From Kutzneria kofuensis (lineage in GTDB: Bacteria; Actinomycetota; Actinomycetes; Mycobacteriales; Pseudonocardiaceae), in contig NZ_JACHIR010000001.1 of assembly GCF_014203355.1 (NCBI RefSeq), positions 7,752,038 through 7,816,037 of the forward strand: a stretch of DNA of 64,000 bases, read 5' to 3'. Every line of letters begins with the position of its first letter. Position 1 is the first letter of the stretch. The translations under genes and the position numbers were made by a program. The notes under the pieces are model-generated. The model searched no databases, had not been told where the DNA came from, and saw nothing but the letters and a program-made list of their open reading frames with translations. Positions 913-17,176 of this stretch are shown piece after piece.

Positions 913-2409
913 TCAGCCCGGACCGACCAGCCCGTGGATCGAGTACCGCTCCATGGACAGGTACGGGAACAGCGGCTTCGCGTACGGGCTGGCCGCGAAG
1001 TAGCCCTGCAGCCGGTCGTGGTTCACGGCGTTGTCCACCGCCATCATGATCGCCGTCTGCCCGATGGCCATGAACCGCGGCGCCAGCGTGCCGGTCCGCG
1101 CCTCGACGGCGTCCAGCAGCCCGTACTGGTTGTAGATCAGCGGGAACTTGGCGATCAGCTGCGTGATGTTGGCGAACGCCGGCTCCGGGATGATCGGCAA
1201 CGCCAGGAACGCGGCCGACGGCGTGGTCACGTCGTCCGGCACCTCGCCCTGGTTGATGGCCAGCTCGGTCGCTCCGTAGTTGGTGTACCGCTGGGCGCCC
1301 GTCGGCGAGGTGGCCGCCGACCAGCCCCAGACCGGGGTCCTGGCGCCGAGCTGCCCGTACGCGCCGTGGGCCAGCGCGGTGTTCCGGTTGTTCATGCCGA
1401 GGCTCTGCGGCGCGATCGCCTGCTCCGGCACCACCATCGCCGGCGCGAGCGCCTGGTACAGGCTGCCGTTGAAGGTCGGCACGAACTTGATCCGGTCGTA
1501 GACGTAGTGGCCCTCGAAGATGGTGTACTGCTTGCCGTCCTGGGGATCGGTGTAGGTCCGGTTCAGGCCCTCCGGCACCTGGCGCTGCCGGTGGTCGGCC
1601 GGCGGCGTGCGGGCCAGCCCCCACCACAGCGCGCCCGGCACCTTGCCGCTGCCGATGGCCAGGTAGTCGGCGATGCGCGGCCCGGAGTAGAGGTTGTCGT
1701 ACGTGGAGTCGGAGTAGCCCTGTCCGACCTGGTAGCCGTTGTACAGCACGTTCTCGGTGGCGTTGTACAGGAAGTCCCACCGCATCGCGTCCAGCAGCGC
1801 CTGGAAGCCGCCGGCCAGCGCCGGAAACGCTTGCGCGGCGGTCAGCATGCCCTGGGCCAGCCAACCGTTGTCCACAGTGGACACGTAGCCGTTCTTGATC
1901 GGACGGCCGCGCGGCGACTCGATGGCCTGCCCGGTGGTCGTGCTGTACCAGCGGAACAGGAAGCCGTCGTACTTCGCCAGCTTCTGGATCTGGGCCAGCA
2001 CCGCCGCCGCTTCGGCCTGAGCCTTGTCGGACGTCTCCAGGCCGAGGTCCTTGGCCGCCACGATGGCGGTCAGGTAGTTCCCGATCAGCGACGGGTTGGT
2101 GTACTGCTGGTCGGGCGTCGCCGGCGCGAGCTCGACCGTGTTCGCCGGATCGCCCGCGAGCAGGACGCTGGCCAAGGGCAGGCTCGTCACCGGGTCCACG
2201 CCCGGCCCGGACAACAGCCGCCAGGTTCGGGCGGCGACCTCACGCAGGAACCCGATCTGGCCGTCGGTCAGGTGGGCGGTCGGGTCCACCACGACCGTGT
2301 CGTCCGCGGCGGCCGCCTGCCACTGGTCGGCCTCGACGGGTTCGGTCGTGGCGGCACACGCCGCGGTGAGGGCAACGGCTGCAACGAGCAGGCGATGCAG
2401 TCGGTTCAC
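913..2409 (-). CDS. Glycoamylase-like secreted lipoprotein
   Basis: This 498-residue protein has an N-terminal signal peptide (MNRLHRLLVAAVALTAAC), and the Cys probably acts as a lipobox. The rest resembles the glycoamylase-like alpha/alpha-toroid family (PF10091-type): aromatic-rich segments such as 'DGFLFRWYSTTTGQ', 'STVDNGWLAQGMLTA', and late 'ATELAINQGE' and 'QTAIMMAVDN'. Family members include beta-1,2-glucanases and other exopolysaccharide hydrolases. It is the last gene of the operon; its GTG start overlaps the stop of the glycosyltransferase gene by 4 bases. In that setting it may trim or edit the polymer made by the upstream synthase outside the cell. Substrate unknown. Confidence 0.8.
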   Translation of the reverse strand: MNRLHRLLVAAVALTAACAATTEPVEADQWQAAAADDTVVVDPTAHLTDGQIGFLREVAARTWRLLSGPGVDPVTSLPLASVLLAGDPANTVELAPATPDQQYTNPSLIGNYLTAIVAAKDLGLETSDKAQAEAAAVLAQIQKLAKYDGFLFRWYSTTTGQAIESPRGRPIKNGYVSTVDNGWLAQGMLTAAQAFPALAGGFQALLDAMRWDFLYNATENVLYNGYQVGQGYSDSTYDNLYSGPRIADYLAIGSGKVPGALWWGLARTPPADHRQRQVPEGLNRTYTDPQDGKQYTIFEGHYVYDRIKFVPTFNGSLYQALAPAMVVPEQAIAPQSLGMNNRNTALAHGAYGQLGARTPVWGWSAATSPTGAQRYTNYGATELAINQGEVPDDVTTPSAAFLALPIIPEPAFANITQLIAKFPLIYNQYGLLDAVEARTGTLAPRFMAIGQTAIMMAVDNAVNHDRLQGYFAASPYAKPLFPYLSMERYSIHGLVGPG

Positions 2410-4376
2410 GCGTCTCCATTCGTCAGGTAGCGCGGTGCGAGCACCGGCCAGGTGATGTCCGGATTCGGCGCGACCCGGCGGGCAGGGCGCCACACGGGTC
2501 GGACCGGGCGGGTTCGCAGCAGCAGCAAGGCTTCCACGTTGGCCAGCCGCTTCACGATGACGAAGCCGAGGAACAGCGGCCACCACAGCAGGGACTTCCA
2601 CAGCCGCCGGTAGAACAGCGCGCAGATCGTCACCAGCAGCATCGGCAGCTTGGCCAGCACGAAAAACGCGAGCAGATGGAACAGGTTCTGCCGGTTGTCG
2701 GGTTGCAACACCGCGGCCTGCAAGGCGAACAGGTAGGCGGCGAACTGCATCGGCTGCACCAGCCGCCGCGCTCCCTTGAAGAACTCGGCGAACCAGAACC
2801 GGGGGCCGGCGGAGCCCGCGGCGAACGGCACGAACCGGGCGAAGTTGTAGATGGACCCCTGGCTCCACCGCCGCCGCTGCAACCGCAGCTGGGCCAGGGA
2901 TTCCGGCACGTCCTCGTACGCCCAGACGCGTCGGTCGTAGACGGCCCGGTAGCCGATCCGGGCCAGGCTGCAGGTGAAGTCGATGTCCTCGCCGAGCATG
3001 CCCTCCGGCCAGCCACCGACCTCCAGCGCCGCCGTGCGCCGCACCGCCGTGTAGTTGCCCGGCACGCACGGCTGCATGTCGACCACCGCGTACGCCAGTC
3101 GCGGCAGGCCGAAGCCGGCCGCCAGCTCCAGCGAGCGCATCCGGTCGACCCACGTGCGGAACGGGAACTTCGGCAGCATGAACGCACCCACCAGCCCGAT
3201 CCGCGGATCCGCCTGGAACCAGGGGACGCTGTAGCGGAAGACGTTCGGGTGCAGCTCGCAGTCGGTGTCGTGGCGCACCACGTAGTCCGCGGTGCAGCGG
3301 GTGAGCGCCAGGTTGAGGGCGGTCGCCTTGCCGGTGTGGGAACCGGCGATCACCGTGCCCTGTAAGGCGGTCGCACGCGCCATCGCCTCCTCGGCCAGTC
3401 GTCGGGTGTCGTCGGTGGAGCCGTCGTCGCACAGGATCAGGTGCACCGGGCCGCCGTAGGCCGCCGCGGCCCGGTCGACGCTCTGCACCCAGCGCACGAT
3501 GTTGGTCTCCTCGTTGAACGCCGGCCCGATCACGTCGATCGGCGGCGGGTTCGGCCCCGGCATCGGCAGCCGGCGCCGGCCGACCACCCGCAGGACCGAC
3601 AACATGATGTAGAGACCGAACTTGAGGTAGACGGGAATCGCCAGCAGCAGGAACGTGTACGCCACCGGGTCGTCGCCGATCAGGCTGACCACGTAGGCCG
3701 CGCCGGCGGCGACGAACACCGACACCGCCGCCAGCGACACGATGGTCAGCACGGTGTCGAAGGTGTCGCCGGTGCGTCGGATCGGCACCTGCGTCGGCCG
3801 CGGCAGCAGGTAGGTCGTCAGCGCCAGCCGCATCGCCATCACGTACGCGACGGCGTAGTGCATCAGGATGCTGACCAGCGGGAAAGGCCCCAGTGGCAGG
3901 CGGAACTCGAGGCCGATCACGCCCAGCGCGGTGTCCGCGGTGAGCGACGCGAAGATCGCCAGCGGCGCGTGCAGCAAGATCAGCAGGCGCCGCAACGGAC
4001 TCGCCCGCACGCAGAGCGCGAGCGCGACCGTGAACGCGAGGAAGCTGATCGGGATCACGGGCCGCAGGTGGGACACGTAGTCGGCCACCACGCCCGGCAG
4101 TGGCACGACCGACGTGACCGCGCGGCCGATCGCCCACCGGTACGAAGTGGACAGATCGGGGGAGCGCGCGCTGTTGAGCACGACGCTGCCGCCGAGGCAG
4201 ATCACCACGAACGCGGCGACCCGCCGCAGTGACGGCGGATGCGGCTTGGGCAACCGCACCACATTGCCGACGCCACGGTCGGAGTCGTCGAACCGCCGCC
4301 GCAAGGCGTGCACGACCAGCACCGCGATCAAGGCGACGTTCAGCGCCAGCAGGACGAGCCCGGCCCAGCGGATCAT
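2406..4376 (-). CDS. Membrane GT2 processive glycosyltransferase (polysaccharide synthase)
   Basis: This 656-residue polytopic protein has hydrophobic segments at about residues 3-25, 52-68, 108-123, 130-150, 163-190, 208-232 and 238-262, a cytosolic GT2 domain (about 275-520), and further membrane segments after about 540. GT2 motifs are visible: CDDGSTDDT (about 316-324), HDTD (369-372, the DxD), GEDIDF (462-467) and QRRRW (500-504), the acceptor/product-site motif of cellulose, hyaluronan and PNAG synthases. It should polymerise a nucleotide sugar and export the chain. The ATGA overlap with the adaptor gene and GTGA overlap with the glycoamylase-like gene indicate one transcript. The sugar used is unknown. 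Confidence 0.9.
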   Translation of the reverse strand: MIRWAGLVLLALNVALIAVLVVHALRRRFDDSDRGVGNVVRLPKPHPPSLRRVAAFVVICLGGSVVLNSARSPDLSTSYRWAIGRAVTSVVPLPGVVADYVSHLRPVIPISFLAFTVALALCVRASPLRRLLILLHAPLAIFASLTADTALGVIGLEFRLPLGPFPLVSILMHYAVAYVMAMRLALTTYLLPRPTQVPIRRTGDTFDTVLTIVSLAAVSVFVAAGAAYVVSLIGDDPVAYTFLLLAIPVYLKFGLYIMLSVLRVVGRRRLPMPGPNPPPIDVIGPAFNEETNIVRWVQSVDRAAAAYGGPVHLILCDDGSTDDTRRLAEEAMARATALQGTVIAGSHTGKATALNLALTRCTADYVVRHDTDCELHPNVFRYSVPWFQADPRIGLVGAFMLPKFPFRTWVDRMRSLELAAGFGLPRLAYAVVDMQPCVPGNYTAVRRTAALEVGGWPEGMLGEDIDFTCSLARIGYRAVYDRRVWAYEDVPESLAQLRLQRRRWSQGSIYNFARFVPFAAGSAGPRFWFAEFFKGARRLVQPMQFAAYLFALQAAVLQPDNRQNLFHLLAFFVLAKLPMLLVTICALFYRRLWKSLLWWPLFLGFVIVKRLANVEALLLLRTRPVRPVWRPARRVAPNPDITWPVLAPRYLTNGDA

Positions 4377-5722
4377 GGGAAGACCACGCTGAGGCTCATG
4401 CCGGGAGTGGTCCCTTCGGGCCAGTGCGCCACGGTCAGCCGGACCGCGTACTCCACCGAGCCGGACTGGTCGATCGGCATCGGGATGACCTGGTCAACAG
4501 TGCCGTCCACGGTCCGCCGCAAGGCGTTCACGGTGACACGGGCCGGAGTTCCCTGCTTGAGCCCGGGCATCGCCGCCTCGGCCACCTGCGCGACCGCGTC
4601 GCTCTCCGAGCTGACGAGCGTGATCAGCGGATGTTGGTTGGCGGTGCCGGGATTCGCCGTCGAGTCGGCGCCGGCGGCCGGCGGGAACAGGCTGAACGCC
4701 GGCGCCTGTGCGGGCTGCATGGACTGTGGCCCGGCGAACCCGTGCACGCCGGTGGTGCCGTCGAGTTCGCCGGGCACGCCGCCGACATTGGCGATCACAC
4801 CGTCGATGGGAGAGGTCAGCGTGAGCTGATCGAGGGCGTGCTGCGCCTGGTCGACGTCGGACTGCGCGGACGCCACCGCGGACTGCGCGGACGAGACGTC
4901 CGCGGCCGACGCCGGCTCGCCGGCGGCCGCGCGTTGGTTCCGGGTCAGCGCCAACGTGGACTGCGCCGAGGTGACGGCGTTCGCGGCGGTGTCCCGCAGC
5001 TGGGCCGTGGATGCCTTGGTGTGGACGAGGTTCGCGTTGGCGGTGGCGATGGCCGAGGCGTCCTTGCGGACCTGCGCCTGCAGGTTCGCGCAGAACGTCT
5101 TGTCGGTGTCGGAGCCGTTGGCGCACAAGGTGGACAGCTGCCTGTTGTCGGCGTCGTACGTCGACTGCGCGTCCGTGACGGCTTGCTGCGCCTGGGCGAC
5201 TTCGGCGTCTGCCGTGGCGACTGCGTCGGCGGCGGCTTTCTGCGCACCCGCCAACTGCGAGTTCGCCTTGGCCACCTGAAGATCGAGGTTCTGCTTCGTG
5301 GACTCGGCCAACGCCGGCGACTGCAACGCCGTGAGCTTGGCCTGCGCCGCCGACAGCACCGCCTTCGCGTCGGCGAGGGTCGCCTTGGCCACGGCCTGGT
5401 CCTGCGTGGCCAGCGGCTGCCCCTTCTTGACGTGTTCGCCGGCCCGCACCATCACGTCCTGAATCCGCCCGGTCTGGGTGAAGTCCAGGTTCAGCGTCTG
5501 CTCGGGCTGCACGGCGCCGACGAAGCTGGTTCGGGCCGACACGTCCGCGTAGGTGAAGTAGGCCAGGACCGAGCCCCCGGACAGGATCGCCACCGCGACC
5601 AGAAGTTGACGTACCGACGAGTGCGGGAACTCCTTGCCCTTGGTCGGGTGATGCCCGTCGGGGGAGGGGGTGAGATCGGCTGCCGCGTTCATGCCGCGGA
5701 CCCGGACCTGGCCGCGTGCCAT
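4373..5722 (-). CDS. HlyD-family membrane adaptor subunit
   Basis: This 449-residue protein has a cytosolic N-terminus of about 38 residues, one membrane helix (about 39-57), a half-lipoyl/barrel segment, a very long Ala/Gln-rich coiled-coil hairpin (about 108-330), and a second barrel half ending 'LTLTSPIDGVIANVGG'. This is the membrane fusion protein architecture of HlyD/EmrA. Start: ATG at 5722, which shares one base with the stop of the upstream epimerase gene. No ABC, MFS or RND exporter is encoded nearby. The partner is instead the next gene, a GT2 synthase, which recalls the Alg8-Alg44 pairing in alginate synthesis. A longer frame upstream runs into the epimerase gene and is not the start. 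Confidence 0.88.
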   Translation of the reverse strand: MARGQVRVRGMNAAADLTPSPDGHHPTKGKEFPHSSVRQLLVAVAILSGGSVLAYFTYADVSARTSFVGAVQPEQTLNLDFTQTGRIQDVMVRAGEHVKKGQPLATQDQAVAKATLADAKAVLSAAQAKLTALQSPALAESTKQNLDLQVAKANSQLAGAQKAAADAVATADAEVAQAQQAVTDAQSTYDADNRQLSTLCANGSDTDKTFCANLQAQVRKDASAIATANANLVHTKASTAQLRDTAANAVTSAQSTLALTRNQRAAAGEPASAADVSSAQSAVASAQSDVDQAQHALDQLTLTSPIDGVIANVGGVPGELDGTTGVHGFAGPQSMQPAQAPAFSLFPPAAGADSTANPGTANQHPLITLVSSESDAVAQVAEAAMPGLKQGTPARVTVNALRRTVDGTVDQVIPMPIDQSGSVEYAVRLTVAHWPEGTTPGMSLSVVFP

Positions 5723-6948
5723 CAGTCGACCGTCACCGGCTGCCGCACCGGCAGGTCCGTCAGCAGGTCCTCGGCGACGGCCATGCCCTCGCGCCACACC
5801 GACCGGCAGACGATCTTCGACGGGTCGACGCGGTCGCAGTAGCGGGCCGCGATGTCCGTGCACTCCTCGAGCAGCCCCTCGGACAGGGTGGTCGGCTTCA
5901 GGCCGAGCGCGAGGAACCGGTCGTTGCGCACCACCAGGTCGTTCTCCACCGCCTCCTGCCGTGGATTGGGCAGGTTCGCCACCTCGACACCGGTCATCGC
6001 GCTGACCAGTTCGGCCAGGTCGCGCACCCGGTGCGTCTCGGTGATCTGGTTGAACACGGTGGGCTTGGCGCCGGGCTCCGGCGGGTTGGAAAGCGCTATC
6101 TCTATGCAGCGCACGGTGTCCCGGATGTGGATGAACGCCCGCGTCTGCCCGCCGGTGCCGTGCACGGTCAGCGGGTGGCCGATGGCGGCCTGCATCAGGA
6201 ACCGGTTCAGCACGGTGCCGAAGTCGCCGTCGTAGTCGAAGCGGTTGACCAGCCGCTCGTCGCGGGCGGTCTGCGGGGTCTGCGTGCCCCACACGATGCC
6301 CTGGTGCAGGTCGGTGATCCGCAGCCCGTCGTTGTGCGCGTAGAACGCGAACATGAGCTGGTCCAACGTCTTCGTCAGGTGGTAGACGGAGCCGGGGTTG
6401 GCCGGGTGCAGGATCTCGCGCTCCAGGTCGCCGTCGGGGGTGGGCACCTTGACGGTGAGGTAGCCCTCGGGGATGGGAGCCGAGCCGGACCAGCCGTAGC
6501 CGTACACGCCCATCGTGCCCAGGTGCACCAGCGCGGTCTCGCCGCCGGTCGCGACCAGCGCGGTCAGCAGGTTGTGAGTCGCCCGCACGTTGTTGTCCAC
6601 GGTGTAACGCTTCGAGCCGGTGGACCGCATCGAGTACGGCGCCGCCCGTTGTTCGGCGAAGTGCACCACGGCATCGGGCCGAAGCCTGGTCAACACCGAC
6701 ACCAACCGGTCGTACTCGGTGGCGAGGTCCAGACGGACGAACCCGATGTCCCGTCCGGAAACCTGCCGCCAGACCCGCAACCGCTCGCCGAGCGCCCGGA
6801 CCGGGGTCAGCGACTCGACCTCCAGTTCCAGGTCGATGGCTCGTCTGCTGAGGTTGTCGAGAATGGTCACGTCGTGGCCGTGGTCGGACAGGTGCAGCGC
6901 AGTGGGCCAGCCGCAGAATCCGTCTCCGCCCAGAACAAGTACACGCAT
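5722..6948 (-). CDS. SQD1-type UDP-sulfoquinovose synthase homologue (extended SDR epimerase)
   Basis: This 408-residue extended SDR strongly resembles SQD1: N-terminal GGDGFCGWPTALHLS (residues 7-21), the TMGVYG motif (T145), YHLTK (Y189, H190, K193; SQD1 has YHxxK), 'DLHQGIVWGT', and 'FGTVLNRFLMQAAIGHPLTV' followed by a GGQTR segment. SQD1 joins UDP-glucose and sulfite into UDP-sulfoquinovose using bound NAD. The ATG at 6948 places the nucleotide motif directly at the N-terminus and has AAGGGG about 12 bases upstream. A start at 6990 would add 14 unlikely residues. It is the first gene of the operon and faces the cysH operon, which would make sulfite. Exact product specificity is inferred. 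Confidence 0.87.
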   Translation of the reverse strand: MRVLVLGGDGFCGWPTALHLSDHGHDVTILDNLSRRAIDLELEVESLTPVRALGERLRVWRQVSGRDIGFVRLDLATEYDRLVSVLTRLRPDAVVHFAEQRAAPYSMRSTGSKRYTVDNNVRATHNLLTALVATGGETALVHLGTMGVYGYGWSGSAPIPEGYLTVKVPTPDGDLEREILHPANPGSVYHLTKTLDQLMFAFYAHNDGLRITDLHQGIVWGTQTPQTARDERLVNRFDYDGDFGTVLNRFLMQAAIGHPLTVHGTGGQTRAFIHIRDTVRCIEIALSNPPEPGAKPTVFNQITETHRVRDLAELVSAMTGVEVANLPNPRQEAVENDLVVRNDRFLALGLKPTTLSEGLLEECTDIAARYCDRVDPSKIVCRSVWREGMAVAEDLLTDLPVRQPVTVD

Positions 6949-7071
6949 GCGAGATGCACACCCCTTGGAGTTCTGTTCAGGGACCGCCATGACGCGACGA
7001 GGGCAGGGGGCCGCGCAGGCGGGGAGGACGTCGGCGAGAGAGCTTCAGGGTCCGCCGGCCAGGTGCGAGTT

Positions 7072-7090
7072 ATTAGGAAACCTTCTTAAC
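7072..7090. promoter_or_regulatory. 19-bp palindromic operator, copy 1 (epimerase operon promoter)
   Basis: The site reads ATTAGGAAACCTTCTTAAC, an imperfect palindrome (6 of 8 arm positions pair) of the form GTTAGGAA-N3-TTCYTWAC. It lies 10 bases downstream of the minus-strand -10 box (7106-7101), where a repressor would block transcription start. Matching sites are at 7261 and 12969. The regulator is not identifiable from this window. Confidence 0.6.
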
Positions 7091-7100
7091 TCGGAGTCGG

Positions 7101-7129
7101 AGACTATTCGCATACGTGGACCTCGTCAA
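7101..7129 (-). promoter_or_regulatory. Sigma-70-type promoter of the epimerase-GT operon
   Basis: On the minus strand, TTGACG (7129-7124) and TAGTCT (7106-7101) are separated by exactly 17 bases, which fits the housekeeping sigma factor well. The predicted start site near 7094 leaves a leader of about 145 bases before the ATG at 6948. The operator at 7090-7072 lies just downstream. Confidence 0.6.
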
Positions 7130-7220
7130 GCTTCCGGTCCCCGAGTGCCGCTCGTCTTCGGCCTCGCGTATGGAAACGATTTCAGGGTCTGACCTGGAGA
7201 TGTCACCCCAATGGCGGGGG

Positions 7221-7250
7221 TTGACTGCTCGCGCCGGACGGGCCTACGCT
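7221..7250 (+). promoter_or_regulatory. Sigma-70-type promoter of the cysH operon
   Basis: TTGACT (7221-7226) and TACGCT (7245-7250) are separated by 18 bases. The predicted start near 7257 gives a leader of about 55 bases to the cysH ATG. The operator at 7261-7279 begins 10 bases after the -10 box, the same geometry as on the divergent side. The rest of the 363-base intergenic region (6949-7311) shows no gene. Confidence 0.55.
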
Positions 7251-7260
7251 CCGCCGCACG

Positions 7261-7279
7261 GTAAGGAAAGTTTCCTAAC
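7261..7279. promoter_or_regulatory. 19-bp palindromic operator, copy 2 (cysH operon promoter)
   Basis: The site reads GTAAGGAAAGTTTCCTAAC and is nearly perfectly palindromic: AGGAAA-G-TTTCCT core, flanked by GT and AC. It is the best of the three copies in the window and probably sits over the early transcribed region, as expected for a repressor site. Confidence 0.65.
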
Positions 7280-7311
7280 AAATTGGTCCGCTCCCCTGGA
7301 GGAGGACCCTC

Positions 7312-8010
7312 ATGGACGCTCGCCCGCGCGCCGAACTCCGGCGCATCGCCGACCGGGCCGCCGCCGAACTGCGTGACGCCACCGCCGAGGAGATCCTGAG
7401 GTGGGCCGGAGGCACGTTCGGCGACCGGCTCGCGGTGGCCTCCTCGATGGCCGACACCGTGCTCGTCGACCTGGCCGCCCGCCACGCGCCCGGCGTGCAC
7501 GTGTTGTTCCTGGACACCGGCTACCACTTTCCCGAGACCATCGGCACCCGGGACGCGGTGGCCGCGACATACCCGATCACGCTGGTCACGGTCTCCCCCG
7601 AGCAGACCGTGGCGGAGCAGGACCTCTGGTACGGGCCGGGGCTGTACGCCCGCGACCCCGACAAGTGCTGTGCCCTGCGCAAGATCGCGCCGCTCGACGC
7701 GGCGCTGGAGCACTACGACGCCTGGCTCACCGGCGTGCGCCGGGACGAGTCGCCGACCAGGGCGGACACGCCCGTCATCGGCTGGGACGACCGGCGCGGC
7801 AAGGTGAAGGTCAGCCCGCTCGCCGGGTGGACCGCGGACGACGTGGCGGAATACGCCGTACGGCAGGGAGTTCTGCTGAATCCGCTGCTCGCCGACGGCT
7901 ACCTGTCCGTCGGCTGCCGCCCGTGCACCACCCGGGTCGACCCCGGCGCGGACCCGCGCAGCGGTCGCTGGACCGGCCGCGCGAAGACCGAGTGCGGCCT
8001 GCACCTCTGA
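7312..8010 (+). CDS. cysH: Assimilatory APS reductase, [4Fe-4S] type
   Basis: This 232-residue protein reduces adenylyl sulfate (APS) to sulfite with electrons from thioredoxin. It has the iron-sulfur cysteine pair in DKCCALRK (C119, C120), the second pair in SVGCRPCTT (C202, C205), and the C-terminal catalytic Cys in TECGLHL (C228). The four cluster cysteines mark the APS-specific bacterial type rather than the PAPS-specific enterobacterial type. This fits the absence of an APS kinase gene nearby. The ATG at 7312 follows a strong GGAGGAGG. It is the first gene of a six-gene sulfur operon that faces an SQD1-type gene using sulfite. Confidence 0.95.
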   Translation: MDARPRAELRRIADRAAAELRDATAEEILRWAGGTFGDRLAVASSMADTVLVDLAARHAPGVHVLFLDTGYHFPETIGTRDAVAATYPITLVTVSPEQTVAEQDLWYGPGLYARDPDKCCALRKIAPLDAALEHYDAWLTGVRRDESPTRADTPVIGWDDRRGKVKVSPLAGWTADDVAEYAVRQGVLLNPLLADGYLSVGCRPCTTRVDPGADPRSGRWTGRAKTECGLHL

Positions 8011-8070
8011 GCTGCGACAACCACATTTCCGGCGGAACCGCCGCCCGCCGCGACCGAAAGGGGTTTCGGT

Positions 8071-8988
8071 GTGAGGGCGACGACCCGAGCACGGCACATC
8101 CTCTCGCACCTCGACGCCCTGGAGGCCGAGTCGGTGCACATCCTCCGCGAGGTGGCGGCGGAGTTCGAACGACCGGTGCTGCTGTTCTCCGGCGGCAAGG
8201 ACTCGACGGTCATGCTGCATCTGGCGCGCAAGGCATTCCTGCCGGCGCCGATTCCGTTCCAGTTGTTACATGTGGACACCGGGCACAATTTCCCGGAGAC
8301 GCTGGAATTCCGGGACCGTGCCGTCGCCCGCTTCGGCGTTCGGCTGTTGGTGGCGGACGTCCAGTCCTATATCGACGCCGGCGAACTGCGGGAACGGCCC
8401 GACGGCACGCGCAACCCGCTGCAGACCCTGCCGCTGCTGCGGGCCATCGAGGCCAACCGGTTCGACGCCGTGCTCGGCGGCGGCCGCCGCGACGAGGAGA
8501 AGGCCCGCGCCAAGGAAAGGGTTTTCTCGCTGCGTGACGAGTTCGGGCAGTGGGATCCGCGCCGGCAGCGACCCGAGCTCTGGCGGCTCTACAACGGGCG
8601 GCACCGGCCGGGCGAACACATGCGCGTCTTCCCCCTCTCCAACTGGACCGAGCTGGACGTCTGGGGCTACGTCCGGGCCGAGGGCATCGAGCTGCCCGCC
8701 ATCTACTTCACCCACCGGCGAACGGTCTTCCTGCGCGACGGCATGTGGCTCGCGCCGGGGTCGTGGGGCGAGCCCCAGGCCGGGGAGCCGGTGCAGGAGC
8801 GGATGGTGCGCTACCGCACCGTCGGCGACATGTCCTGCACCGGCGCCGTCGACTCGCCGGCGTCCTCGGTGGACGAGGTGATCGCCGAGATCGCCGCGTC
8901 CCGCGTCACGGAACGGGGTTCCAGCCGCGCGGACGACCGGATGTCCGAGGCCGCCATGGAGGACCGCAAGCGGGAGGGCTACTTCTGA
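8071..8988 (+). CDS. cysD: Sulfate adenylyltransferase subunit 2
   Basis: This 305-residue ATP-pyrophosphatase-fold subunit activates sulfate to APS. The PP-loop SGGKDS is at residues 40-45, followed by 'HVDTGHNFPETLEFRD' and a conserved GGGRRDEEKARAKER segment. The C-terminus 'DRMSEAAMEDRKREGYF' is typical of CysD. The GTG at 8071 has AAAGGGG upstream. It lies 60 bases after cysH, and its stop shares one base with the cysN start, so CysD and CysN should be made in equal amounts as a complex. Confidence 0.95.
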   Translation: MRATTRARHILSHLDALEAESVHILREVAAEFERPVLLFSGGKDSTVMLHLARKAFLPAPIPFQLLHVDTGHNFPETLEFRDRAVARFGVRLLVADVQSYIDAGELRERPDGTRNPLQTLPLLRAIEANRFDAVLGGGRRDEEKARAKERVFSLRDEFGQWDPRRQRPELWRLYNGRHRPGEHMRVFPLSNWTELDVWGYVRAEGIELPAIYFTHRRTVFLRDGMWLAPGSWGEPQAGEPVQERMVRYRTVGDMSCTGAVDSPASSVDEVIAEIAASRVTERGSSRADDRMSEAAMEDRKREGYF

Positions 8989-10250
8989 TGACCACGACCG
9001 AGATCGCCGTCGGCGACCTGCTCCGGCTGGCGACGGCGGGCAGCGTCGACGACGGCAAGTCCACGCTGGTCGGGCGGCTGTTGCACGACACGAGCGCGGT
9101 CATGCCGGACCAGCTGGAGGCGGTCCGCCGGGCGTCCCGCGACCGCGGCCTGGCCGACGCCGACCTGGCGCTGCTCACCGACGGTCTGCGGGCCGAGCGG
9201 GAACAGGGCATCACGATCGACGTGGCGTACCGGTACTTCGCCACGGCCCGGCGGCGGTTCATCCTCGCCGACACACCGGGCCACGTGCAGTACACGAGGA
9301 ACATGGTCACGGGGGCGTCGACCGCCGAGCTGGCGGTGGTCCTGGTGGACGCGCGGCACGGCTTCGTCGAGCAGACCGGTCGGCACACCGTGGTCTCAGC
9401 GCTGCTGCGCGTCCCGCACGTGGCGCTGGCGGTGAACAAGATGGACCTGGTCGGCTACGCCGAGGACCGGTTCGCCGAGATCGCCGGGGAATTCACCGAG
9501 TACGCACGGAAACTCGGCGTGCCGGACGTGGTGGCGATCCCCATGTCCGCGCTGCGCGGGGACAACGTCGTCGAGCCCAGCCCGCACATGACCTGGTACG
9601 CCGGGCCGACGCTGCTGGAACACCTGGAGACCGTGCCGACCGGTGGCGAGCCCGAGGCGACCCGGCTGCCCGTGCAGTACGTGCTCCGGGCGACCGACTT
9701 CCGTGGCTACGCCGGGCAGTTGTCCTCGGGCATGCTCCGCGTGGGTGACCCGGTGGCGGTGTCGCCGGCCGGGCACCGCACCCGTATCACCGGCATCGAG
9801 GTGGGCGGCACGCCGGTGGACGAGGCGTTCGCGCCGCAGTCGGTGGTGGTGCGGCTCGCCGACGCGGTGGACGTGGCCCGCGGCGACCTGATCACGCCGG
9901 TGTCGACCGTGCCGAGCCCGGCCGAGCGGCTGCTGGTCGTCGGCTGCCAACTGGCGTCGCGGCCGCTGCGCGTGGGCGACCGGGTGTTGGTGCGGCATAC
10001 CACAAGGACCGTGCGGGCGGTGGTGGAGGCGATCGACGAGCGGTTGGACGTGCATTCGCTGAGCACCGACAACGCGGCGGACACGTTGTACACCAACGAG
10101 ATCGCGCTGGTGTCGATGCGCACGGCCGAACCGGTCGCCGTCGATCCGTACGAGTACAACCGGCACTGTGGGGCCGTCCTGCTCATCGACGAGGCCAGTG
10201 GCGACACGCTGACGGCCGGAATGGTGGGCGTCCCACCGTGGTGGCCGTGA
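8988..10250 (+). CDS. cysN: Sulfate adenylyltransferase subunit 1 (GTPase)
   Basis: This 420-residue GTPase uses GTP hydrolysis to drive APS formation by CysD. Visible motifs are GSVDDGKST (18-26), the switch 'EREQGITIDVAYRYF', DTPGH (95-99) and NKMD (150-153), followed by EF-Tu-like beta-barrel domains. The length shows no fused APS kinase (CysC) domain. It starts with a TGATG overlap with cysD. With cysH it makes a sulfate to APS to sulfite route. Confidence 0.95.
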   Translation: MTTTEIAVGDLLRLATAGSVDDGKSTLVGRLLHDTSAVMPDQLEAVRRASRDRGLADADLALLTDGLRAEREQGITIDVAYRYFATARRRFILADTPGHVQYTRNMVTGASTAELAVVLVDARHGFVEQTGRHTVVSALLRVPHVALAVNKMDLVGYAEDRFAEIAGEFTEYARKLGVPDVVAIPMSALRGDNVVEPSPHMTWYAGPTLLEHLETVPTGGEPEATRLPVQYVLRATDFRGYAGQLSSGMLRVGDPVAVSPAGHRTRITGIEVGGTPVDEAFAPQSVVVRLADAVDVARGDLITPVSTVPSPAERLLVVGCQLASRPLRVGDRVLVRHTTRTVRAVVEAIDERLDVHSLSTDNAADTLYTNEIALVSMRTAEPVAVDPYEYNRHCGAVLLIDEASGDTLTAGMVGVPPWWP

Positions 10251-11269
10251 GACGGCTGTTGCCGGTCGCCGCCGCGGCACTGCTGCTGGCCGGCTGCACG
10301 GCGGCGGCCACCGAGAACGAGCTGAGACTGGGATACCTGGGCAATCTCACGCATGCGACGGCGATCGTCGGCGTGGCCGGCGGTTTCTTCGCCAAGGCAC
10401 TGGGGGACATCCAACTCACCACGCAGGTGTTCAACGCCGGCCCGGCGGAGATGACCGCGCTGCTCGGCGGCCAGCTCGACGCCGCCTACGTCGGCCCGTC
10501 CTCCGCCTTGAACGGTTACGTCCGCAGCCACGGCCAGGCGCTGAAGATCGTCGCCGGCGCGACCATGGGCGGCGCGGAGCTCGTCGTCCGGCCCTCGATC
10601 ACCGCGGCGGGGCAGCTCAAGGGGAAAACGCTTGCCACGCCCCAACTCGGCAACACCCAGGACGTGGCGCTGCGGTACTGGCTCAGCCAGCACGGCATGA
10701 GGACCACCACCGACGGCGGCGACGTGGCGATTCGCCCGCAGGACAACGCGACCACACTGGACCAGTTCCGCGCCGGCAAGATCGACGGCGCCTGGCTGCC
10801 GGAGCCGTGGGCATCCCGGCTCGTCGTGGCGGCGCAGGCGAAGGTGCTGGTGGACGAGCGTGACCTCTGGCCCGACGGCCGCTTCGCCAGCACGGATCTG
10901 GTGGTGTCGACGACGTTTCTCCGTGACCACCCGCAGGCCGTGCGGCGGCTGATCGACGGAGAACTGGCTGCCAACGACTGGGTCTCCGCCAATGCCGGCG
11001 AGGCCACCAGGACCGTCAACACCGAACTGCGACGGATCAGCGGCGCCGCGCTGACCGACGCCGAGGTCACGCGGGCCTGGGACGAGCAGCAGGTCACCGG
11101 CGATCCGCTGGCGTCGACCGTCGGCGTGCAGGCCGACCACGCCGTGACGGTCGGCCTGATGTCGGCCACCGACCTGCGGGGCATCGTGGACATCGGCCCG
11201 CTGAACGACGCGCTGGCGGCGAAGGGACGGCCGAAGGTGGACGACGCCGGCTTGGGGGACAAGCGATGA
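10247..11269 (+). CDS. Sulfonate/sulfate-type ABC transporter substrate-binding lipoprotein
   Basis: This 340-residue SsuA/TauA/NrtA-family binding protein starts MRRLLPVAAAALLLAGC, a classic lipoprotein signal with lipobox LAGC. GTG codons at 10238, 10241 and 10247 are all possible starts; 10247 is chosen because it gives a 4-base GTGA overlap with cysN and the cleanest signal peptide. The mature protein has 'LGYLGNLTHATAIVGVAGGFF', 'AAYVGPSSALNGY' and 'GAWLPEPWASRL', typical of the aliphatic sulfonate/nitrate/taurine group. Placement after cysHDN suggests uptake of sulfate or an organosulfonate. Confidence 0.88.
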   Translation: MRRLLPVAAAALLLAGCTAAATENELRLGYLGNLTHATAIVGVAGGFFAKALGDIQLTTQVFNAGPAEMTALLGGQLDAAYVGPSSALNGYVRSHGQALKIVAGATMGGAELVVRPSITAAGQLKGKTLATPQLGNTQDVALRYWLSQHGMRTTTDGGDVAIRPQDNATTLDQFRAGKIDGAWLPEPWASRLVVAAQAKVLVDERDLWPDGRFASTDLVVSTTFLRDHPQAVRRLIDGELAANDWVSANAGEATRTVNTELRRISGAALTDAEVTRAWDEQQVTGDPLASTVGVQADHAVTVGLMSATDLRGIVDIGPLNDALAAKGRPKVDDAGLGDKR

Positions 11270-12030
11270 CTCTGATCACCGCTCGATCGACGCGGCAGGC
11301 GGTCGCGCTCGACGGCGTGGGCAAGGCGTTCGACAGCGGGCCGCCGGTGCTGGAGGACATCTCGCTGACGGTGCGGTCCGGTGAATTCGTCTGCCTGCTG
11401 GGCGCTTCCGGCTGCGGCAAGTCCACGCTGCTCAACCTGATCGCCGGCCTGGACACCCCCACCGCGGGCAGCGTGGAGCTGGCCGGCGGGCATGCGGCGC
11501 TGATGTTCCAGGAGTCGGCGCTGTTCCCATGGCTGACGGCGACCCACAACGTGGAGTTGGCATTGCGGCTGCGGGGCGTGCCGCGCAAGGAGAGACAGGT
11601 GGAGGCGCACCGGCTGTTGTCGTTGGTACGCCTGGAACACGCCTGTGACATGCGGGCGCACGAGCTGTCCGGCGGGATGCGGCAACGGGTCGCGCTGGCC
11701 CGGGCCCTGGCCCAGGGCAGCGAGGTGCTGCTGATGGACGAGCCGTTCGCGGCGCTGGACGCGATCACCCGGGACGTGTTGCACGAGGAGCTGATCCGGC
11801 TGTGGCAGCACGCCGGGTTCAGCACGGTCTTCGTCACGCACAACGTGCGCGAGGCGGTCCGGCTGGCGGAGCGGGTCGTGCTGCTCACGTCGCTGCCGGG
11901 ACGGATCGCGCGGGAGTGGACGGTGGACATCCCGCACCCGCGGCGCATCGAGGACGGGGCCGTGGCGCGGCTGTCCCTGGAGATCACCGAACACCTCCGG
12001 GAGGAGATCCGCAGACATGGCCAGACCTGA
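11266..12030 (+). CDS. ABC transporter ATP-binding protein (SsuB/TauB type)
   Basis: This 254-residue ABC ATPase has Walker A GASGCGKST (46-54), Q-loop LMFQESALFPWLT, signature LSGGMRQRVALARAL, Walker B VLLMDEPFAALD and the switch His in VFVTHNVREA. The 'PWLTATHNVELALRLRGV' region is typical of the sulfonate/nitrate/taurine importer ATPases. The ATGA overlap with the binding-protein gene and 14-base overlap with the permease gene show one transporter unit. Confidence 0.93.
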   Translation: MTLITARSTRQAVALDGVGKAFDSGPPVLEDISLTVRSGEFVCLLGASGCGKSTLLNLIAGLDTPTAGSVELAGGHAALMFQESALFPWLTATHNVELALRLRGVPRKERQVEAHRLLSLVRLEHACDMRAHELSGGMRQRVALARALAQGSEVLLMDEPFAALDAITRDVLHEELIRLWQHAGFSTVFVTHNVREAVRLAERVVLLTSLPGRIAREWTVDIPHPRRIEDGAVARLSLEITEHLREEIRRHGQT

Positions 12031-12886
12031 GCACAACGGACTGGCCCGGCTGGAGGCGGGCCTCGACTCGCTGGCCGGCGCCCGCGCCGCGCCACGGCGC
12101 CGACTGCGCCAGCAAGTGCTGCCGCCGGTGGTCGCCATAGCCGTGGTGCTGCTCGGCTGGCAGGGCCTCTACCTGGCCGGCGTGCAACCGGACTGGGTGC
12201 TGCCGGGGCCGGGCGAGGTGTGGCGGTCGCTGGTCACCGCGGCCGGCCGGGGCGAGGTCTGGTCCAGCATCGGGAACAGCCTTTCCCGTGGTGCGATCGG
12301 GTTTCTCGTGTCGGTGGCGATCGGCACGCCGCTGGGGGTCGTGGTCGGCCGCAGCCAGCCGGTGCGCACCGCCGTCGGCCCGATCCTGTCCGGGCTGCAG
12401 AACCTGCCCTCGGTGGCGTGGGTGCCGCCGGCGGTCATCTTCTTCGGTGTCACGCCGGCGACCATCTACACGGTGATCCTGCTCGGCGCCGTGCCGTCCA
12501 TCGCCAACGGCCTGGTGTCCGGGCTGGACCAGGTGCCGCCGCTGTACCTCAAGGTGGGCCGGAACCTGGGTGCGAAAGGCTTTTCTTCGGTGGTGCACGT
12601 GTTGCTGCCGGCGGCGCTGCCCGGGTACGTCGCCGGCCTCAAGCAGGGCTGGGCGTTCGCCTGGCGGTCGCTGATGGCCGCCGAGATCATCGCGACCTCG
12701 GCCTCGCTCGGGCACGGCCTCGGCCAGCTGCTGAAACAGGCCCAGGACACCAATGACATGGCGCTGGCCTTCGGCACCATCGCGCTGGTGCTGGTCGTCG
12801 GCATCGGCGTGAACCAGCTGGTGTTCGCGCCGGTCGAGCGCCATGTGCTGCGGTCACACGGTTTGGCGTCGGGACCTCGGCGCTGA
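12017..12886 (+). CDS. ABC transporter permease (SsuC/TauC type)
   Basis: This 289-residue protein has about six membrane segments, starting with 'VLPPVVAIAVVLLGWQGLYL', and the SsuC-type periplasmic 'VQPDWVLPGPGEVWRSL' sequence. The EAA-like coupling segment 'DQVPPLYLKVGRNLGAKGFSSV' is present. It is the last gene of the cys/transport operon; no sulfite reductase or APS kinase gene follows. It forms the channel for the preceding ATPase and binding protein. Confidence 0.92.
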   Translation: MARPEHNGLARLEAGLDSLAGARAAPRRRLRQQVLPPVVAIAVVLLGWQGLYLAGVQPDWVLPGPGEVWRSLVTAAGRGEVWSSIGNSLSRGAIGFLVSVAIGTPLGVVVGRSQPVRTAVGPILSGLQNLPSVAWVPPAVIFFGVTPATIYTVILLGAVPSIANGLVSGLDQVPPLYLKVGRNLGAKGFSSVVHVLLPAALPGYVAGLKQGWAFAWRSLMAAEIIATSASLGHGLGQLLKQAQDTNDMALAFGTIALVLVVGIGVNQLVFAPVERHVLRSHGLASGPRR

Positions 12887-12987: not shown

Positions 12988-13069
12988 TAAGGCGGTGACG
13001 GGTCGTAAGCTTCGAATCACCGCCGCCTTCGCAGTCCTGGCGCCCTGCCAGTCAGCTACGGAGGCAACC

Positions 13070-13993
13070 ATGAGGAGACGAGCGATCGTCCCCGTCCTGA
13101 CGTCCGGTGTGCTCGCGGTGTTCGCCGTCATCGCCATGGTGCTCGCCGGAGTCGGACCGGCGTCGGCCGCCGCGCCGCACGCGTCCCAGCAGACGTTCCT
13201 GACCTTCTACGGCTGGTGGGACAACACGCCCCCGGGTGGCGACATCGCGCACCCGGTCAAGCACAAGACCGCGGGCGGCGTCGGCACCTTCGACGACCCG
13301 ATCACGTTCGCCACCTCCACCAAGGAGGTGAAGCCGGGCGGCAAGATCTACGTGCCGCGTGTGGGCAAGTACTTCATCATGGAGGACGACTGCGACGAGT
13401 GCAGCTCCGACTGGAACGGCAAGGGCCCCAACGGCGGCCCGAAGCTGGCCCACTTCGACCTGTGGCTCGGCGGCAAGGGCGGCGACCCGTTCAAGGCCAT
13501 CCAGTGCGAGGTCGCGCTCACGCACTACAACAAGGACAACACGCCGACCATGGAACCGGTGATCGTCAACCCCGGCTCGGGCGAGAAGGTCAGCAAGGAC
13601 CCGATCTTCAACACCAGCACCGGCGAGTGCTACGGCGGCGCGACCCCGACGATCACGGTCGGCCCGTACAGGAACCCGGCCTCGGCGGTATGCCTGGACG
13701 CGCCGGCCGGCGCCACCAAGATCGGCGTGAAGTCCTGTGACGGCTCGGCCGAGCAGAACTTCACGTTCGACGGCACCTTCCTGAGCATCCGCAACCTGTG
13801 CGCCGACTCCAAGGGCGGCGACATCGCGCTCAAGAAGTGCACCGGAGGCCCGACGCAGCAGTGGTCGGCCAACCCGAGCGGGACCATCTCCGACATCCAG
13901 ACCGGCAAGAAGTGCTTCCGCGCGACGAAGACCGCGGTGACCGCGGGTAGCTGTTCCGGCTCGGCGGCGCAATGGACCTTCCCCACGGCCTGA
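13070..13993 (+). CDS. Secreted protein with C-terminal ricin-type lectin domain
   Basis: This 307-residue protein has a signal peptide (about residues 1-35, ending near PASAAA). A central Cys-containing domain follows ('TFLTFYGWWDNTPPGGD', 'KIYVPRVGKYFIMEDDCDEC'), which resembles secreted barwin/DPBB-like domains. From about residue 195 a beta-trefoil lectin segment has repeated Cys and Q-x-W-like motifs (AEQNFTF, TQQWSA, AAQWTF). The ATG at 13070 has GGAGG 6 bases upstream and is preferred over an upstream GTG at 12995. It probably binds an extracellular polysaccharide. It may share regulation with the sulfur and polysaccharide operons through the operator at 12969. Confidence 0.8.
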   Translation: MRRRAIVPVLTSGVLAVFAVIAMVLAGVGPASAAAPHASQQTFLTFYGWWDNTPPGGDIAHPVKHKTAGGVGTFDDPITFATSTKEVKPGGKIYVPRVGKYFIMEDDCDECSSDWNGKGPNGGPKLAHFDLWLGGKGGDPFKAIQCEVALTHYNKDNTPTMEPVIVNPGSGEKVSKDPIFNTSTGECYGGATPTITVGPYRNPASAVCLDAPAGATKIGVKSCDGSAEQNFTFDGTFLSIRNLCADSKGGDIALKKCTGGPTQQWSANPSGTISDIQTGKKCFRATKTAVTAGSCSGSAAQWTFPTA

Positions 13994-14031
13994 TCCGTTC
14001 AGGCCAGAAAGCCCAGGCAGGGGCGGGACGT

Positions 14032-14073
14032 CGCCGGCCCCCACGCGCGTCAGGGTGCGCCACGGGGCCGGCG
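14032..14073. terminator. Possible hairpin between secreted protein genes
   Basis: CGCCGGCCCC (14032-14041) pairs perfectly with GGGGCCGGCG (14064-14073) across a 22-base loop. It has no T-run. It may attenuate transcription between the lectin gene and the beta-helix genes. Confidence 0.35.
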
Positions 14074-14156
14074 GCGGACTGGGGCGTCCGTCGCATCGTG
14101 CGCTGCCGCCACACACTGCCGTTCACCGTTTCATCTCTCCCTTCGGAGGAACCCTC

Positions 14157-16082: not shown

Positions 16083-17098
16083 TCCCCGGGATCAAGACGC
16101 TGGCCGCGGCGGCGCTGGTGACGCAGTTCGCCGTGCACCCGGCCGCGTCGACGATCAATGTCGGCAACGCGGCCGAGCTGGTCGCCGCGTTGAAGGCCGC
16201 GAAGCCGGGCGACACCATCAAGTTGGCCGACGGCGACTACGGCGACCAGTTCATCGCCACCACGTCCGGCACGGCGTCCGCGCCGATCACCTTGGTGGGC
16301 AGTGCCAAGGCCGTGCTGCACGACCCGAAGTTCAAGGCGAGCGACACCGACTGCCCGTCCGGTCAGACCGGCTACGGGTTCTGGCTCAAGGGCGCGAGCT
16401 ACTGGAACCTCAAGGGGTTCAGCGTCACGCAGTCCAAGAAGGGCATCGTCCTGGACGGCGCCACGCACGTGACGATCGACGGTGTCACCGTGCACGACAT
16501 CGGCTACGAGGGCGTGCACTTCCGCAAGAGCAGCGCCTACGGTGTGATCAAGAACTCGACCGTGTACAACACGGGTCTCGAGGAGCCGGGCTACGGCGAG
16601 GGTGTGTACATCGGCTCGTCCAACAGCAACTGGCACTGCTACGGCACCAACGGCGGCAAGAGCCCGGATGCCAGCGACTACGTCCAGGTGCTGAACAACA
16701 AGATCGGGCCGAACGTGGCCGCCGAGGGCCTGGACGTCAAGGAGGGCACGCACGACGGTGTGATCGACGGCAACACCCTGGACGGGACCGGCGAGAAGAA
16801 CGAGAACTCGGCCGACTCCACGATGGACATCAAGGGCGACAAGTACAAGATCACCAACAACACCGCCGAGAACGCCTACCTCGACGTGATCCAGACGCAC
16901 AACCTGTGGAAGAAGACCGGTTGTGGCAACACGTTCAGCAACAACACGCTGACCGTGACCAACAAGGACGGCTACGGCATCAACGCCACGAACCAGAGCC
17001 AGTGCGTGTCGTCGAAGTCGCCGAACGTCATCGGCGCGTCCAACAAGAGCACCGGGGGCAAGGGGTTGTCCAAGACCCCGACCACGCCCGGTGTCTAG
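16079..17098 (+). CDS. Secreted parallel beta-helix polysaccharide lyase-like protein (paralogue A)
   Basis: This 339-residue protein has a short signal peptide (MIPGIKTLAAAALVTQFAVH). The N-terminus 'NAAELVAALKAAKPGDTIKL' followed by 'GTASAPITLVG' is the entry to a PL6/PL9-like parallel beta-helix. Helix turns follow ('VTIDGVTVHDIGYEGVHFRK', 'GVIDGNTLDGTGEKN', 'YKITNNTAENAYLDVIQ'). Catalytic residues cannot be assigned safely. The GTG start overlaps the upstream stop by 4 bases. It is a close paralogue of the next gene, with nearly every segment alignable. Confidence 0.8.
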   Translation: MIPGIKTLAAAALVTQFAVHPAASTINVGNAAELVAALKAAKPGDTIKLADGDYGDQFIATTSGTASAPITLVGSAKAVLHDPKFKASDTDCPSGQTGYGFWLKGASYWNLKGFSVTQSKKGIVLDGATHVTIDGVTVHDIGYEGVHFRKSSAYGVIKNSTVYNTGLEEPGYGEGVYIGSSNSNWHCYGTNGGKSPDASDYVQVLNNKIGPNVAAEGLDVKEGTHDGVIDGNTLDGTGEKNENSADSTMDIKGDKYKITNNTAENAYLDVIQTHNLWKKTGCGNTFSNNTLTVTNKDGYGINATNQSQCVSSKSPNVIGASNKSTGGKGLSKTPTTPGV

Positions 17099-17176
17099 GT
17101 GATCCAGGGGCCGTCCCGCATATCAGCCGCTGTGCGGGCCGGCCCCGGCCATCCCTGCCGGAAAGGACCGTTCCCT

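Follow-up and report, generated by a model that had tools for sequence, protein, structure and literature searches.

Sulfoquinovose synthesis has been discussed mostly for the lipids of phototrophs, and the uses described for the sugar so far are mainly those in plant and cyanobacterial lipids and in some archaeal proteins. The abstracts of two papers count sulfoquinovose among nature's most abundant organosulfur compounds (PMC11659671, PMC12890257). Here we analyse a 64-kb stretch of DNA from Kutzneria kofuensis (the window; 7.752-7.816 Mb of contig C1 in a 10.4-Mb genome, with coordinates given as positions within the window), in which two divergent operons place a homologue of the UDP-sulfoquinovose synthase SQD1, an HlyD-like adaptor, a membrane glycosyltransferase of family 2 (GT2) and a glycoamylase-like protein opposite a set of genes for sulfite supply. 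What sequence and comparison give is the identity of these genes, a cys paralogue without sulfite reductase, paired palindromes between the operons, and a linkage of SQD and GT2 genes that recurs in other genomes. The reading that we favour, and for which we regard the case as evenly balanced, is that the locus would be a recurring sulfoquinovose-glycan module with its own sulfite supply, both operons standing under one regulator. The broader idea, that Actinobacteria may use UDP-sulfoquinovose to build a sulfonated exopolysaccharide or wall glycan by way of a dedicated GT2-HlyD pair, with a private sulfite operon in Kutzneria and Kitasatospora (in Kutzneria under the same regulator), is held slightly more tentatively.

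The ten genes are all present and intact, in the places and order that a first-pass annotation of the window had given them: SQD-HlyD-GT2-glycoamylase on the minus strand, facing cysHDN-ABC on the plus strand, with adjacent genes within each operon overlapping or at most 60 bp apart. The synthase homologue, P0001 (5722-6990, minus strand), is a 422-aa open reading frame (ORF) whose likely start is the ATG at 6948, where its homologues begin. It matches Arabidopsis SQD1 (1i24) with 328 bits (E 7.8e-97, phmmer) and retains the motifs GGDGFCG, HFAEQR, LGTM and YHLTK, the first of which is the Rossmann GxxGxxG, and T159, Y203 and K207 make up the Thr/Tyr-x3-Lys triad of short-chain dehydrogenases/reductases. 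For Agl3 of Sulfolobus, His95, Arg101, Met145, Tyr182 and Lys186 are reported to be essential and the alanine mutant of Glu147 to be strongly impaired (PMC4388408). All five essential residues are found in P0001, as H110, R115, M160, Y203 and K207, when the two proteins are matched through SQD1.

Across 114 SQD loci picked by similarity, our own included, the His, Glu and Gln of HFxEQ and the Ser, Tyr, His and Lys of SxYHxxK are invariant (114/114), the equivalents of Y182, H183 and K186 in Agl3 numbering thus being identical throughout; the Arg is constant in 113/114, and the Thr and Met of LGTM in 112/114 each. A tree of 55 rows divides the family into two deep clades (support 100/100), one with LGTMGEYG, to which Arabidopsis and distant actinobacterial copies belong, and one with LGTMGVYGYG, which includes P0001; this split into a Glu and a Val subclade bears on the mechanism of the sulfonation step. 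The score to SQD1, the retained catalytic residues and the placement in the tree support the SQD1-type identity assigned in the first pass, and despite a missed NCBIfam cut-off, taken up below, P0001 is very probably a UDP-sulfoquinovose synthase.

Some other members of the family are worth recording. A distant homologue at L174:8957-10120 has Pro in place of the Arg essential in Agl3 and sits on a long branch, perhaps with a different activity. Genome G176 has two very similar SQD genes (L169 and L170, adjacent tips of the tree), one of them beside an HlyD-GT2 pair, and Salinisphaera hydrothermalis (G757; L207, L095) has two Val-clade genes, with an SqdX-like glycosyltransferase of family 4 (GT4) 1.4 kb from the L095 copy.

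The linkage of the synthase gene to the GT2 gene is best seen first within the genus. An SQD gene is present in five of seven Kutzneria genomes (our own and G001-G006), G003 and G004 being without one, and the four SQD-bearing relatives carry SQD-HlyD-GT2-glycoamylase together with cysHDN-ABC at 79-96% identity (that of G002 being read through L034); in Kutzneria sp. 744, where the SQD gene and the one for P0001 share 95% identity, the locus is entirely syntenic. Beyond the genus, the window GT2 (P0003) matched 15 of 396 genomes of the phylum at E<=1e-25, our own included, and the only other long matches were in G176 (33%, residues 10-640) and G402 (29%, residues 118-641). In G176 the order is SQD, HlyD-like, GT2, tightly spaced, and the SQD gene comes from the other deep clade. 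A four-sequence GT2 profile (A1), scanned at E<=1e-60 with just three or four candidates scored per genome, so that matches may be missed, found 6/690 genomes, namely 4/296 of the class of G176 and 2/394 of our own class. SQD is present in all six; it lies within 3 kb of the GT2 gene in four (G000, G176, G682 and G1003) and elsewhere in the genome, unlinked, in G583 and G664. Since SQD itself is common (99/396 genomes of the phylum), bare co-occurrence says little, but chance is an unlikely explanation for a distance below 3 kb when the genomes measure 2-10 Mb, and the linkage is found with both deep SQD clades.

The arrangement varies between lineages. In Kitasatospora, HlyD follows SQD and the GT2 gene stands past the cys operon, at a distance of 6 kb; in L085 the GT2 gene is 4.5 kb from SQD; in G682 the HlyD gene is oriented the opposite way; and in G1003 (L210:5164-13207) SQD, a gene for a 598-aa protein and GT2 follow closely on one another, and a gene for a SulP-family sulfate permease lies near them. 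The first-pass annotation had named an adjacency unique to this strain as the outcome that would speak against its proposal. Uniqueness is ruled out by the Kutzneria relatives, all five SQD-bearing genomes of the genus sharing the locus, and by G176, G682 and G1003, and the association of SQD with GT2, usually together with an HlyD-like gene, does recur beyond the genus. The co-occurrence of the four-gene operon with cys genes, which the first-pass annotation proposed to survey, was seen in full in Kutzneria only: among the loci compared, the glycoamylase-like gene was seen in that genus alone, and cys genes accompany SQD-HlyD-GT2 in Kutzneria and Kitasatospora. Four picocyanobacterial GT2 matches at 70-73 bits were not counted as full-scoring, and the GT2 of G402 was dropped as support: its neighbours are an integrase, a transposase and a TIR-nSTAND-WD40 protein, and the SQD of that genome lies on other contigs. 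This distant GT2 (L171:3981-10213), beside a TIR-nSTAND1-WD40 protein and an integrase, has a mobile or defence context.

The facing operon encodes six proteins on the plus strand. CysH (7312-8010; PF01507 3.8e-43; PRK02090 254 bits, cut-off 154) has the cysteines C119-C120 and C202-C205 and the motif ECGLH (CC...CRPC...ECGLH), a combination of CC...CxxC and ECG[LI]H that we take to mark an assimilatory APS (adenosine 5'-phosphosulfate) reductase; with the APS_reductase model TIGR02055 it scores 218 bits, slightly below the cut-off of 235. CysD (8071-8988; TIGR02039 453 bits) and the 421-aa CysN (8985-10250; TIGR02034 506 bits) are the two subunits of sulfate adenylyltransferase, CysN being the GTPase subunit, and both exceed their cut-offs. 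They are followed by an SsuA-family substrate-binding protein (SBP; 10238-11269; TIGR01728 162.1 bits, cut-off 163.5), an ABC transporter ATPase of the taurine/nitrate/sulfonate type (11266-12030; PF00005 6.7e-32; best NCBIfam model NF008421, below cut-off) and a SaoP/TauC/SsuC-like permease (12017-12886; PF00528 5e-18; every NCBIfam match below cut-off). As CysH carries the cysteine pattern of APS reductases, an APS kinase would not be needed, and no APS-kinase domain was found in the window CysN by Pfam and NCBIfam scans.

That the window is free of sulfite reductase and APS kinase, as had been claimed, holds: genome matches of the sulfite reductase family PF01077 are confined to C1:2.07 and 3.07 Mb, and that of the APS kinase PF01583 to 8.52 Mb. 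The claim that the pathway ends at sulfite is thus upheld for the window and was dropped for the organism as a whole. The genome has three sulfate modules, with three CysD and two CysH genes. The module at C1:2.07 Mb has an NIR_SIR gene followed by CysH-CysD-CysN-SBP-ABC-permease, six genes shared with the window in the same order and 49-74% identical in protein sequence (58, 74, 56, 49, 59 and 52%); that at 8.52 Mb has CysD with CysNC, whose APS-kinase domain exceeds its cut-off; and the one in the window is without a sulfite reductase and an APS kinase. A sulfite-reductase-type gene before cysH is known from mycobacteria. Given this position and the fact that the other NIR_SIR gene of the genome is NirB over its NCBIfam cut-off, the gene at C1:2.07 Mb is likely to be the sulfite reductase of the genome, and by tblastn (E<=1e-8) it matches no SQD locus except L066, at 28%.

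All six window cys proteins are nearer in identity to those of the operon flanking SQD in Kitasatospora MAP5-34 than to their paralogues within the genome: 63, 75, 64, 61, 72 and 70% for CysH, CysD, CysN, SBP, ABC and permease, against 58, 74, 58, 50, 63 and 53%. In Catenulispora rubra, SQD also faces cysDN, together with a partial HlyD at the contig end, and its cysD groups with the housekeeping type of Kutzneria (98/98, seven sequences), so that SQD and cys genes have probably come together on more than one occasion. A Nocardioides metagenome-assembled genome (MAG) has a single 702-aa frame (L103:4311-6419) that joins an APS-reductase-type PF01507 domain (residues 41-214) to a Val-clade SQD domain (residues 294-581). 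The junction contains an ATG and a possible ribosome site; the frame may be a fusion or a tightly coupled pair, a missed stop in the MAG being possible. The notion that sulfite supply is a linked function draws support from this CysH-SQD ORF in another actinomycete, from the cys paralogue without reductase and from the palindromes described next. A sulfotransferase-family gene comes after the L103 ORF, at 7180-7953. The cys genes of L088 were dropped as support: a distance of 5 kb, occupied by TerC, SGNH, PhyH and HD-domain genes, separates them from SQD.

Between the two operons lie two copies of a 17-bp palindrome, TTAGGAAANTTTCCTAA. With up to three mismatches it has two matches in the 64 kb and none in 100 shuffles, and both are operator-like sites in the intergenic region, one for the SQD operon (7073-7089, TTAGGAAACCTTCTTAA) and one for the cys operon (7262-7278, TAAGGAAAGTTTCCTAA). 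Each starts 11 bp after the -10 box of a promoter-like sequence, TTGACG-17-TAGTCT for the SQD operon (7101-7129, minus strand) and TTGACT-18-TACGCT for the cys operon (7221-7250, plus strand), these being the only match per strand of a loose -35/-10 pattern in the intergenic region. The motif was spotted by eye here before it was counted, so the count is not blind, and independent support comes from conservation. Among 178 loci (2.37 Mb, several overlapping), the palindrome was found in 11: our own, in three overlapping copies (L114, L177, L178), four Kutzneria relatives, L039, L188, L173 and L174. Both sites are present in L034, L115 and L117 and a single one in L116; Catenulispora has both (L039 and L188 being one contig), and L173 and L174 have single matches without an SQD-cys context. 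It was not found in L166 and L167, which hold the other cys modules. The two operons are apparently co-regulated, and the paired palindromes open the coupling of sulfite to sugar to a simple expression experiment.

Of the remaining proteins of the minus operon, the GT2 is a polysaccharide-synthase-type membrane glycosyltransferase (2406-4376, minus strand; 656 aa; PF13641 4.4e-22), in which the family motifs D318, D370xD372, GED462-464 and Q500xxRW504 are invariant across four homologues and the catalytic domain is flanked by hydrophobic segments, six before and two after by hydropathy, as expected for the D, DxD, ED, QxxRW type with flanking transmembrane (TM) segments. Its best NCBIfam model is PgaC_IcaA, with 102 of 422 bits, and its AlphaFold model (pLDDT 44.9, four sequences) is too poor for judging a channel. 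The HlyD/membrane-fusion-like adaptor (4373-5692, minus strand; PF13437 5.6e-08, over cut-off) has one predicted N-terminal hydrophobic segment. A putative envelope-spanning accessory of this kind passes the Pfam cut-off for an HlyD-like protein in Kutzneria, Kitasatospora, L085, G583 and G664, and in G176 and G682 it stays under that cut-off, with BLAST support; its relatives occur near GT2 in other members of the phylum. The exported glycoamylase/DUF3131 protein (913-2409, minus strand; PF10091 3.3e-14 and DUF3131 1e-05, both over cut-off), a putative lipoprotein with an imperfect lipobox by eye, has partial matches in the Protein Data Bank (PDB) to the GT36 protein 8wy1 and to cyclic beta-1,2-glucan synthases and also resembles putative glucoamylases; among the loci compared, its gene occurs in Kutzneria only. 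The AlphaFold model of this protein (pLDDT 32.2, two sequences) is unusable. Directly downstream on the same strand lies a gene for a DUF6924 protein (404-916), possibly on the same transcript. No PilZ match was found at E<=0.001 by Pfam among the ten locus proteins, so the locus is not filed as an Alg44/BcsA-type system.

We infer enzyme activities, the donor of the GT2, polymer, export and regulator from these features, and the favoured sequence of events would run as follows. The plus operon would import sulfate or a sulfonate; CysDN would activate sulfate to APS and CysH reduce APS to sulfite, and from sulfite and UDP-glucose the SQD1/SqdB-type enzyme would form UDP-sulfoquinovose. The membrane GT2 might then polymerise or transfer sulfoquinovose across the membrane, alone or with another sugar, the HlyD-like protein might carry or bridge the product through the cell wall, and in Kutzneria the exported glycoamylase-like protein might trim it. 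One regulator would act on both operons through the paired palindromes, and such a common regulator would mean that sulfite and its acceptor are made together.

A number of observations weigh against this reading. P0001 reaches only 309 bits with the NCBIfam equivalog model NF041015, whose cut-off is 575 bits, and is for this reason not filed under it (the proteins of L123 and L106 likewise stay below, with 454 and 324 bits), and the equivalent of Agl3 Glu147 is Val in P0001. As G000 and G176 are members of profile A1, the linkage is found in two of the remaining four genomes, and G402, a weaker match obtained with P0003 alone, has its GT2 unlinked to SQD. In G1003 the middle gene of the cluster has no Pfam match and is not HlyD-like by hhalign, and the SQD has Thr in place of the Met that is essential in Agl3 and otherwise nearly constant. 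Seen from the SQD side, 80 top loci from the genome scan, 47 of which have 5 kb on both sides, contain a full-scoring GT2 in three cases (L034, L035 and L085) and none in 77, and HlyD in four, including L039, where it lies at the end of a contig. Such low numbers suggest that most relatives use UDP-sulfoquinovose otherwise or that the partner is out of range. Among 30 loci from relatives, GT2 or HlyD occurs only in our own and three Kutzneria loci; both are absent in five relatives with an SQD of about 65% identity and in 21 of 22 with 45-51% (excluding G017), and L123, one of these relatives, has an SqdX-like neighbour beside a Glu-bearing SQD. With regard to the cys operon, the palindrome was not found in the intergenic region of Kitasatospora L035; the NIR_SIR gene at C1:2.07 Mb has ferredoxin-nitrite-reductase types as its best NCBIfam models, none over cut-off; and the margin for CysD is narrow (75.3% to Kitasatospora, 73.6% to the own paralogue), is reversed in Kutzneria 744 (74.3% to the own paralogue, 73.9% to Kitasatospora), and in a tree of seven sequences the own paralogue is nearer by path (0.46) than Kitasatospora (0.50). 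Finally, the sequence of the GT2 by itself cannot separate a polymerase from a single-step lipid transferase.

The last point leads to the main rival explanation, namely that the GT2 transfers sulfoquinovose in a single step, yielding a membrane lipid or lipid-linked oligosaccharide, and that the HlyD-like protein moves or anchors this product. The pathway would then be of the sulfolipid type, only with an unrelated transferase. We consider this unlikely, though not by a wide measure. The known bacterial use of UDP-sulfoquinovose is sulfoquinovosyl diacylglycerol (SQDG), and in the PDB the GT2 profile matches 6yv7 best (1.6e-26; titled Glycosyl transferase family 2), a non-polymerising archaeal enzyme, with BcsA behind at 2.9e-17. 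However, a GT2 that has QxxRW, is flanked by hydrophobic segments and is paired with an HlyD protein shows the layout of a polymer synthase, the Kutzneria operon includes an exported glycan-active protein, and the known SQDG transferases are GT4 enzymes (SqdX/SQD2) or SqdD. The polymer-synthase-like features of GT2, HlyD and glycoamylase fall short of proving a polymer. A related and rather less probable view is that SQD feeds ordinary sulfolipid synthesis through a distant GT4 and merely shares a transcript with a GT2-HlyD pair making an unrelated polymer. In its favour, the best SqdX-like GT4 of the genome (34% over residues 2-375 of 378, E 1.4e-60) belongs to a tandem pair of GT4 genes at C1:4.66 Mb, and most SQD loci are without such a GT2. 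This GT4 and the picocyanobacterial one have the same best NCBIfam model, with 157 and 159 of 480 bits, such that the family scan does not separate the two. Yet the GT4 at C1:4.66 Mb is unlinked to SQD, and the SQD-GT2 linkage recurs across several lineages and two SQD clades. The earlier statement that no sulfolipid glycosyltransferase is present here stands in part, in that all 10 genome matches to SqdX-like GT4 at E<=1e-10 lie outside the window, other sulfolipid transferase types such as SqdD not having been searched for.

Two further explanations concern the supply of sulfite and the product of the synthase. The cys operon might be a second copy for general sulfate assimilation that lies close to SQD by accident, which we hold to be very unlikely. 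The three CysD and two CysH genes of the genome could act as mutual backup, and the Kitasatospora locus is without the shared palindrome; against this stand the palindromes common to the cys and SQD operons and not seen in L166 and L167, the linkage in Kutzneria, Kitasatospora and, with a different cysD lineage, Catenulispora, and the in-frame CysH-SQD ORF of L103 together with the lack of sulfite reductase in the window copy. Least probable of all is that the Val-bearing subclade makes some other 6-modified UDP-sugar instead of UDP-sulfoquinovose. It is true that the position of Agl3 Glu147 is Val in 89/89 loci at >=60% identity and Glu in 25/25 below, and that the NCBIfam cut-off is missed, but the Glu-bearing homologue of L123, next to an SqdX-like gene, misses the same cut-off. 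Furthermore, a Val-clade protein, 66% identical to P0001, is the sole SQD homologue at E<=1e-30 in 4/4 Synechococcus/Cyanobium assemblies (two of them MAGs), adjoining in each a GT4 that we presume to be SqdX-like, the family scan yielding no match over cut-off, and picocyanobacteria produce SQDG. Because the Val subclade holds the only SQD homologue of these four assemblies, Glu147 is not taken as a defining residue; the same assemblies make it improbable that the Val clade is a dead branch.

Beside the cys operon, at 12995-18187, lie genes for a Ricin-B-lectin protein and three pectate-lyase-like/right-handed beta-helix proteins, the first beta-helix match being under cut-off. The first two genes of this group are syntenic in 4/4 Kutzneria relatives compared; for the last two, L034 alone gave matches.

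If the sulfoquinovose-glycan reading is true, a soil-bacterial glycan of this kind would be an added polysaccharide sink and source in the sulfur cycle. It would hold its negative charge by a carbon-sulfur bond, not a sulfate ester, as a counterpart of sulfated polysaccharides, and its set of transferases would be open to direct testing. Among the literature matches listed, neither a bacterial sulfoquinovose polysaccharide nor SQD in actinobacterial glycan loci was found.

How, then, does the locus compare with known systems? With the plant and cyanobacterial sulfolipid pathway (SQD1/SqdB with SQD2/SqdX) it shares the synthase family and sulfite as co-substrate, and it differs in having no linked SqdX-like GT4, a multi-TM GT2 with an HlyD-like partner, and an adjoining cys operon. 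The alginate (Alg8-Alg44) and cellulose (BcsAB) systems share with it the GT2 motifs D, DxD, ED and QxxRW, flanking hydrophobic segments, a fusion-type accessory like Alg44 and an exported glycan-active enzyme, whereas the present locus has no PilZ by Pfam, a sulfonated donor sugar (as proposed) and a monoderm host; to us, the HlyD-like protein recalls an Alg44 minus PilZ. The N-glycan pathway of Sulfolobus resembles it in using UDP-sulfoquinovose outside membrane lipids, with the essential His, Arg, Met, Tyr and Lys retained, and differs in that the locus has Val for Glu147 and a linked GT2 with HlyD, N-glycan genes not having been looked for (PMC4388408). For the exopolysaccharide of Sulfolobus, the main sugars are, in the part of a paper drawn on here, mannose, glucose and ribose, and sulfoquinovose is mentioned there for protein glycans alone (PMC9549778). 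The closest likeness of the plus operon is to the actinobacterial assimilatory operon with sulfite reductase, CysH, CysD, CysN and ABC importer, represented in this genome by the copy at C1:2.07 Mb, from which the window copy differs by having no sulfite reductase and by sharing its palindrome with the SQD operon. Every part of the locus thus comes from a known family, and it is the combination of SQD synthase, GT2-HlyD pair and private sulfite operon that is apparently undescribed.

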